A DNA stretch of 32,665 nt from a filamentous cyanobacterium CCT1 (GTDB taxonomy: Bacteria > Cyanobacteriota > Cyanobacteriia > Phormidesmidales > Phormidesmidaceae): assembly GCA_003017855.1 (NCBI GenBank), contig PYER01000038.1, positions 1 to 32,665 on the forward strand. Direction: 5' to 3'. The notes beneath the pieces are model-generated. The model was not told the origin of the DNA and did not search any database. It saw nothing but the letters and a program-made list of their open reading frames with translations. Every line of letters begins with the position of its first letter. Position 1 is the stretch's first letter. The position numbers and the translations under genes were made by a program. Shown here in pieces: positions 11,761-13,281 of the stretch.

Positions 11761-11767
11761 CACGCTC

Positions 11768-11804
11768 TTGCCAGAACAGTACAGGTGCATTAGTATTGGT
11801 GCAT
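11768..11804 (+). promoter_or_regulatory. parM promoter with flanking direct repeats
   Basis: TTGCCA (11768-11773), a 17-nt spacer and TAGTAT (11791-11796) form a plausible sigma-70 promoter about 110 nt before the ParM-like start. A 7-bp direct repeat ggtgcat occurs inside the spacer (11784-11790) and just after the -10 box (11798-11804). Outer agtac/gtact arms at 11778-11782 and 11807-11811 enclose both. In ParMRC plasmid systems ParR binds direct repeats around the parM promoter, which serve as centromere and operator. By analogy this may be such a site. The function is inferred. Confidence 0.5.
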
Positions 11805-11914
11805 GCGTACTTATGGGTACAACCGTTCCCGATCGCCCTATCTCTGACGCCTGGGCCACGGTCAAAACGGTAACCCAAAACCCCGCTGTCCTGATACCCC
11901 CACGAGAGTTTCCT

Positions 11915-12970
11915 ATGACCACGACTACCGCCCCCCGCAGCCGCTCCGCCGCTGGTGCGACTCGGTCTTCGGCCAAGGCTCGCGGCAACCAAACGGCAAG
12001 CACTACCCCCGTGCTCGCCCTCGATGCCGGCAACTATGACCTCAAATTTTTTACCGGCAGCGGTCATCCCAAGGCCATTCGCTCGGTGCGCTACCAGCTC
12101 CCCCAGGGGCGCGATGCCGTCAGCTTCTCCGAGGCTTCTCCTCTAATCGAGCTGCCCGATGGCCGTCGCTACCACTTCGGTGCCCAGGCCTATAAGTATC
12201 GCCGTCAGCAGCAAACCGTGATTGAAAACAAAGTGGAACTGGCCAAGCTGCACCTCTATGCCTGCCTGGAACCCCTGCCCGGCGACGTAGCCGACTACAG
12301 CCTCAATCTTCACGTTTCTACCCCCGACCCGGCCCGCAACGGCGAAGACATTCAGGCTCAGCTGCTTGGCGTCCACGAGTTCGTCCGCAACGAAGTTGAG
12401 TTTCGCGTCAATGTGGAATCGGTCGAGGTGGACCGCGAAGGCATGGGCGCCTACCACTATGCCAAGGCCCAGGGCATTATCCCCAGTCAGGGCTACACCA
12501 TTGTGGTCGATATCGGCGGCGGCACCTGGCTCACCCGACTGGTAGATGCCGACGGCGAAGTAATTGACGAAAACATCATGGATCGCGGCGGCACCTACGA
12601 ACTGGCCACCGCCATTAGCTTCGACCACCGCCTCACCGATCACTTGGGTAGCAGCGCCGACCCCTGCATCGTCATGGATGGCTTTCGCTTTGACCACGCC
12701 TATGCCGACACCGGCTTGGCCTGGGCCGACTGGCTCGACGAGTACCTCGATCCGTGGTTTAAGGGCATTTTCCAAACCGTAAAAGCCCAGTACACCCCCT
12801 ACATGCCGAGGGTCACTCGCTTTTTGGTGACCGGCGGCGGTTCCCACCTGATTGCCGATCGCCTTCAGGGGCATGACCTGTTCGCCGTCATGGGCGACCC
12901 TCAGTTTGCCAACGTTCGTGGCTTGTTTTTGATGACCGGGGATACTCAACTATGCATGACCACCAAGTGA
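11915..12970 (+). CDS. parM: ParM/StbA-like actin-fold ATPase
   Basis: This is an actin-like protein of 351 residues. Relatives (ParM, Alp) polymerise with ATP to push DNA copies apart, with a small DNA-binding adaptor. The phosphate-1 loop is LALDAGNYDLKFF (about 34-46), preceded by a low-complexity Ser/Thr/Ala/Arg tail. The phosphate-2 loop is VVDIGGGTWLTRLVD (about 199-213), and the adenosine motif VTGGGSHL is near 309. The frame is open back to 11768, but the ATG at 11915, after gagag, gives a normal start. The last 19 nt overlap the next gene, a typical parM-parR coupling. Genome partition is not proven: the neighbours are chromosomal housekeeping genes, and some cyanobacterial ParM-like proteins have unknown roles. 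Confidence 0.85.
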   Translation: MTTTTAPRSRSAAGATRSSAKARGNQTASTTPVLALDAGNYDLKFFTGSGHPKAIRSVRYQLPQGRDAVSFSEASPLIELPDGRRYHFGAQAYKYRRQQQTVIENKVELAKLHLYACLEPLPGDVADYSLNLHVSTPDPARNGEDIQAQLLGVHEFVRNEVEFRVNVESVEVDREGMGAYHYAKAQGIIPSQGYTIVVDIGGGTWLTRLVDADGEVIDENIMDRGGTYELATAISFDHRLTDHLGSSADPCIVMDGFRFDHAYADTGLAWADWLDEYLDPWFKGIFQTVKAQYTPYMPRVTRFLVTGGGSHLIADRLQGHDLFAVMGDPQFANVRGLFLMTGDTQLCMTTK

Positions 12971-13281
12971 AATCCGGTACGACCCGGCAGGACAACAAAG
13001 TTCGCCTCAGCCAGGATGTGCTCGAAAAAGCCGATCGCATCGCCGCCGAGTGGGGCCTTAAAAACGCCCGCGCCGCTGTTGAGGCCGTGTTTCGCCGCTA
13101 CTGCGACGACTACCTCTACAGTCGTCCTGCTGACATGGGTGAATTTGTCGCTCACGCAAGCGCTCCGCAGGGCTACGGCAGAACTCTGCCTGCCCCAGGC
13201 GGTCGCTCAGAGAGGCGATCGCCCCCCCCATCGCCCAAGTGTGAAGCGCTAGACGCCCTAGATCAGCTCCTGGCACTCTGA
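12952..13281 (+). CDS. Small ParR-like putative DNA-binding adaptor
   Basis: This 109-residue partner of the ParM-like gene starts inside its last codons (19-nt overlap, ggggat ribosome site at 12936-12941). The first 60 residues, notably KVRLSQDVLEKADRIAAEWGLKNARAAVEAVFRRYCDDYL, read as a beta strand followed by two helices. That fits ribbon-helix-helix or similar ParR/CopG-type folds. Residues about 66-95 are Pro/Arg/Ser-rich and are coded by DNA that looks like an inserted repeat with a HIP1 site. The tail then ends in a short acidic, leucine-rich segment (CEALDALDQLLAL). ParR proteins contact ParM through the C-terminus, which would suit that tail. Assignment rests on gene order and the helical pattern, not on strong motifs. 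Confidence 0.6.
   Translation: MHDHQVKSGTTRQDNKVRLSQDVLEKADRIAAEWGLKNARAAVEAVFRRYCDDYLYSRPADMGEFVAHASAPQGYGRTLPAPGGRSERRSPPPSPKCEALDALDQLLAL

Follow-up and report, generated by a model that had tools for sequence, protein, structure and literature searches.

The locus described here raises the question of whether a pair of genes resembling a plasmid partition operon, found in a filamentous cyanobacterium, serves as a centromere system of the chromosome, is a leftover of a plasmid or mobile element, or works for the host in some other way. We consider it probable that a ParMR-type operon was captured by a cyanobacterial chromosome and is kept by host selection, with a ParR-like repressor that docks on a filament with a host function. 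The pair lies in a 32,665-nucleotide stretch of DNA, referred to as the window, and its features are as follows:

11768–11773, forward strand: −35 element TTGCCA (all 25 of the Nodosilinea-type rows have TTGCCA or TTGTCA, some genomes being counted twice)
11778–11811, no strand: putative operator region, with outer arms AGTAC (11778–11782) and GTACT (11807–11811)
11778–11791 and 11792–11805, forward strand: two-copy 14-nt direct repeat, 79% alike, containing both GGTGCAT copies
11784–11790 and 11798–11804, forward strand: GGTGCAT copies, part of the 14-nt direct repeat
11791–11796, forward strand: −10 element TAGTAT, with a 17-nt spacer from the −35 element
11812–11830, forward strand: conserved leader element TATGGGTACAACCGTTCCC, by eye an imperfect inverted repeat
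11915–12970, forward strand: actin-like ATPase (ALP) of the ParM type, 351 aa, of which the ~34 N-terminal residues form a basic tail
12952–13281, forward strand: small ParR-like gene, 109 aa, with a putative ribbon-helix-helix (RHH)-like core at about residues 14–58, a variable linker and the C-terminal helix CEALDALDQLLAL

The ORF pair was read from the window sequence, and the positions of the actin-fold ATPase, the small gene and the 19 nt that they share (12952–12970) were as claimed in an earlier, sequence-only reading of this DNA, as was the sigma-70-type promoter TTGCCA-17-TAGTAT. An alternative ALP frame of 400 aa, starting with TTG at 11768, would begin inside this promoter. The window ALP matched Pfam ALP_N (E 5.1e-8; 33.7 bits, with a cut-off of 26.3) and the PHROG 691 partition protein (E 6.8e-21), and its structure was matched by Foldseek to Ta0583, pSK41 ParM, CorM and R1 ParM. 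The ParM-type ATPase of ParMRC systems was thus found by Pfam, PHROGs and Foldseek. The proposal of a chromosomal ParM–ParR-type operon akin to plasmid partition genes is supported. (A search for PF06406 gave zero matches, controls included, and was uninformative.) The proposed neighbors ChlI and RuvC were confirmed by Pfam; a third, putatively glgC, was named by a motif in its sequence. Elsewhere in the window genome, two more genes encode actin-like proteins, and both have a small gene after them; one (L049, at G000:C524) matches ALP_N, and the other (L048, at G000:C218) has no Pfam family.

The pair was found at 63 loci with 51 distinct small proteins, in Nodosilinea/Leptolyngbya-type cyanobacteria; the 63 include the same genomes from two collections, and distinctness was judged by the small protein. 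A scan of contigs gave 46 loci with ALPs 68–98% identical to that of the window, and a small ORF directly followed the ALP in 45 of them. At the 46th (L040), the contig ends with the ALP and was left out as having too little DNA, so that the small gene was present at all 45 loci where there was DNA enough to see it. With the start codons that we chose, the 19-nt overlap occurred at 57 of the 63 loci, and a 58th (L046) differs by the choice of start only. In a sample of 57 genomes of the family, an ALP of at least 73% identity was present in 25, at one place each, and 17 of the 20 genomes of the same genus carried the ALP. An ALP of at least 70% identity was absent from 3 of the 20 same-genus and 32 of the 57 family genomes, some of which are incomplete, and the gene therefore appears to be dispensable in some relatives. 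In the phylum sample, the ALP was found in 6 of 386 genomes at E 1e-60. Strong purifying selection acts on the ALP: compared with L001, dN/dS was 0.018–0.059 in six of eight pairs, the other two being saturated. The corresponding values for the small protein were 0.10–0.22 in five of eight pairs, and the remainder were saturated.

The contig of the window spans just 32.7 kb, so that we infer the chromosomal place of the window pair from its housekeeping neighbors and from the relatives. Contigs of 6.10 Mb (L008), 5.53 Mb (G011) and 3.84 Mb (G200) carry the pair, and these members are taken to be chromosomal because of the size of their contigs. Upstream of the pair, glgC was present at 15 of 48 loci (1.4–3.1 kb away in seven of them), and chlI was present downstream at 13 of 48. 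Five loci (L031, L032, L033, L038 and L041) have a different upstream neighbor in common, at a distance of about 1.0–1.4 kb. The neighbors thus differ between groups, which places the pair at a few group-specific sites. Conservation at this locus therefore stood in part: the glgC/chlI context recurs at some of the loci, but elsewhere the pair and its operator lie in other contexts.

The GGTGCAT direct repeats that had been reported in the promoter are present, one in the spacer and one after the −10 element, but among the 51 distinct loci the exact arrangement GGTGCAT-N7-GGTGCAT was confined to one, that of the window itself, and was rejected as a conserved signal. (Of 2000 dinucleotide shuffles, 27.85% contained a direct repeat of some 7-mer within 40 nt.) An upstream element is nevertheless kept in the relatives, in most of them as an inverted repeat that the GGTGCAT pair overlaps in the window, and we read this element over the promoter as a putative operator. 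Among the 25 Nodosilinea-type rows, the block from TTGCCA to GTTCCC (11768–11830) was far more alike than the preceding DNA, and the stretch adjoining the start codon was likewise conserved. Many more distant loci have a core of TATAGTAC-N4-GTACT followed by GGGGACAA, and in many distant relatives the −10 element is TATAGT and overlaps the operator. Within 300 nt upstream, the family site AGTAC-N4-GTACT was found with 0, 1, 2, 3 and 4 mismatches at 14, 18, 17, 1 and 1 of the 51 loci, respectively. With at most one mismatch, it was present at 32 of the 51 distinct loci, among which related rows lack independence, versus 0.67% of 2550 shuffles; of the comparison loci, 0 of 21 with other ALPs and 1 of 12 with CorM had it. 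The window copy is degenerate, with two mismatches, a level reached by ~9% of the shuffles. The count includes L013, which had only 68 nt upstream, and L026, L031 and L050, in which the best sites were far from the expected place; L050 is among the 32, and the chosen start of L031 cut off its operator site. The comparison set of 21 ALP loci does not consist of plasmid genes throughout: named plasmids carry just L092–L094, and L113 comes from an 8.16-Mb contig. One protein is encoded at both L052 and L093. One GGG(G/T)ACA was found within 300 nt upstream at 44 of the 51 loci. By eye, the arms of the GGGGAC...GTCCCC inverted repeat in the leader (11812–11830 in the window, and upstream of L012, L018 and L026) seem to covary, and this repeat might act as a further operator or fold into an RNA hairpin.

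The small protein, previously described as strand-helix-helix, was left unmatched by Pfam and NCBIfam searches at E 1 and by a PHROGs search at E 0.1, and its profile matched only an archaeal histone in the PDB, at E 0.23. The two alignments made for the structure work, A1 and A2, took in 42 and 38 of the 51, respectively. Residues S20, W34–N38, R40–A42, E44–R48, C97, A99, L103 and L107 were invariant in the 42 aligned proteins, and N15, K16, R18 and L19 were nearly so; both the core surrounding KVRLS...WGLKNARAAVEAVFR and the C-E/D-A-L..L..LL tail were near-invariant, and the linker was variable. The AlphaFold model of the single chain was poor (mean pLDDT 60.6) and had helices at residues 21–34, 39–56 and 98–107, with the strand absent. 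A ribbon that is formed in the dimer alone would account for this strand-less model. Foldseek found nothing significant for the model (best match, E 2.3). In a second structure comparison, made with 79 chains only, CopG, NikR and antitoxins had Z scores of 2.7–4.5, with CopG at 4.1 over a 43-residue alignment of 26% identity. Chains of HU and of homeodomains scored 2.0–2.6. The top score of 4.6 belonged to a plant transcription factor, outside the bacterial RHH repressors. Because the structure matches are weak, the RHH reading comes mainly from the sequence pattern and the context, which weakly suggest an RHH-like core; the architecture that had been proposed is retained at that strength, but its strand is missing from the predicted model. 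The tail helix is acidic, and no basic or coiled-coil part was seen in the small protein.

By eye, ALDALDQLLAL-like tails are also present in partner proteins of related ALPs (pMIC7113.05, NALDALLSA; L108, AMALDDVL; L109, AAAALDAVLAFD), and other partners, those of L113 and L052 among them, have different C-terminal ends. Together with the structure of R1 ParM with the ParR C-terminal peptide (PDB 4a62), these similar tails suggest that the conserved tail docks on the ALP.

In cyanobacteria, one chromosomal system of this kind has a known role, that of CorM of Anabaena, for which there is a filament structure (PDB 9rmi), and FcmB. The FcmB of a relative of the window genome matched 9rmi at E 2.6e-179, and CorM and FcmB were therefore taken as one family. 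Membership of the window ALP in this family was rejected by its score against the CorM/FcmB profile NF052678 (10.9 bits, E 0.15, with a cut-off of 300); in the window genome, this profile gave only 46- and 34-bit matches, at other genes. (In relatives, multi-megabase contigs carry similar NF052678 matches, at G200:C2 and G147:C5.) Conversely, the profile of the window-family ALP gave 12 CorM proteins 10.7–18.3 bits, versus 387 bits for L092, which is on a named plasmid; L108 and L109 scored 296 and 180 bits. The small protein of the window also differs from the ORF that follows CorM genes in relatives, called FcmC here by position alone, which is 139–184 aa long, does not overlap the preceding gene and ends like DPVLSRLSGLIDDF. 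At the level of sequence, the window ALP family is thus distinct from CorMR/FcmBC. In a free tree, the window family grouped with L092 and the long-branched L112 (96/96), and in a tree of a smaller set it grouped with L092 (80/82). The family was not recovered as a single clade in free trees, but the AU test was compatible with one clade (p 0.268); a joint clade of the window family and CorM, with long branches present, was not rejected either (p 0.107). A chromosomal capture separate from that of CorM seems likely.

The two families do not appear to replace each other. In the 57 family genomes, the window ALP was present in 25 and CorM, above the cut-off, in 15 (both in 7, the window ALP only in 18, CorM only in 8 and neither in 24; Fisher p 1.0), and phylum-wide they were present in 6 and 61 of 386 genomes, with an overlap of 0 (p 0.60). 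Neither distribution differs from chance, and the idea that one replaces the other was rejected. At G197:C108, in a genome that has kept the window family, CorM/FcmB is in several adjoining pieces and is probably a broken gene. In genus g79, where 0 of 8 sampled genomes had the window family at high identity, the sequence TATAGTACAnTTGAAC(C/T) upstream of corM/fcmB at two CorM loci (L075 and L076) resembles the window-family operator.

From these observations, we propose that the chromosome of Nodosilinea/Leptolyngbya-type filamentous cyanobacteria captured a ParMR-type operon, which host selection has retained. An RHH dimer of the small protein would bind the operator over −10/+1 and repress its own operon, as the fold and the site suggest. 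The ALP would polymerize into an ATP-driven actin-like filament in the service of the host, and the acidic end helix, on its flexible linker, would dock on the end of this filament as the ParR C-terminal peptide does on ParM. The basic N-terminal tail of the ALP, with a net charge above zero in 50 of 51 proteins, is a candidate contact to the membrane or nucleoid. Since the search turned up a short operator but no array, a structural or positioning role is somewhat likelier than DNA segregation. More tentatively, filamentous cyanobacteria may have captured plasmid ParMR more than once, with the window family, which coexists with CorMR in some genomes, arising independently of it and its filament linking to the chromosome or envelope.

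The operator might instead be a minimal parC, and the filaments might tether or separate copies of the chromosome. We regard such a centromere system as unlikely. In its favor, conservation extends to the operator and to the residues that would face DNA, the ParR-like tail is retained, the window has two copies of the 14-nt repeat, and there is a precedent in Clostridium botulinum, where, according to the available portion of PMC12270681, a chromosomal cparC of three palindromes binds cParR. However, a longer repeat array was not found in the window or in four other stretches, and a related longer pattern showed no excess over a reversed control in 10 genomes, in a scan that is too strict for copies as degenerate as that of the window and that picked up the site of the pair itself in just two genomes, G060 and G157. 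An origin-proximal centromere was unsupported, since the pair lies 1.0–2.2 Mb from dnaN, the assumed origin marker, in three genomes (those of the six pair-bearing genomes that have the pair and dnaN on one contig). The promoter is thus at most a candidate for the centromere-like element that had been suggested. A leftover of a plasmid or mobile element without use to the host would explain the plasmid-borne kin and the variation of gene context between groups, but it is very improbable given the ALP dN/dS of 0.02–0.06, the ALP identity of at least 68% across genera and the neighbors common within groups.

A cytoskeletal system with another cargo, which the sequence-only reading had offered beside a domesticated partition cassette, is possible by analogy with CorMR/FcmBC. 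A narrower form, in which the pair is a second membrane cytoskeleton that acts like CorMR/FcmBC and controls cell shape, seems to us conceivable but rather doubtful. Most of the genera named among the hosts are filamentous, although one metagenome-assembled genome (L026) is labelled Cyanothece, a unicellular genus. The basic ALP tail would fit a membrane contact, and FcmBC is itself a captured ParMR in such a role in a filamentous cyanobacterium, as the available part of PMC12645912 describes. The unlikeness of the small protein to the ORF downstream of CorM genes argues against it, as does the lack of mutual exclusion with CorM, since the 7 of 57 genomes with both are close to our own expectation of 6.6. 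We prefer the reading of a captured, host-selected operon with a docking repressor.

In the literature searched (without preprints and most subscription journals), no account of the window ALP family was found. Its nearest plasmid kin is pMIC7113.05 of Allocoleopsis franciscana PCC 7113, with an ALP identity of 48.6%, a 109-aa partner whose gene overlaps the ALP gene by 4 nt, and the ALDALL tail in common. It differs in being plasmid-borne, in the N-terminal part and core of the partner, in the absence of a matching operator and in an ALP without the N-terminal tail. At L108, on a contig of 24 kb, the ALP is 46% identical and the partner matches the core of the small protein (47% over 38 residues). 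The cParMR systems of Desulfitobacterium and Clostridium, as far as described in the available portion of PMC12270681, are likewise ParMR on chromosomes and conserved in their lineage, one of them with a palindromic cparC. They belong to Firmicutes, however, and Dh-cParM1 (PDB 8x1i) is only 16% identical to the window ALP and ranks below Ta0583, pSK41 ParM and CorM in Foldseek. CorMR/FcmBC shares with the window pair a chromosomal actin-like gene with a small downstream partner, derived from partition genes, in filamentous cyanobacteria; in Nostoc punctiforme, the chromosomal, partition-derived FcmB/FcmC pair is needed for rod shape (available part of PMC12645912). CorMR/FcmBC is thus one partition machine turned cytoskeleton, and the window family, which may represent an intermediate on the way from plasmid segregation to a host cytoskeleton, is a natural comparison beside it.
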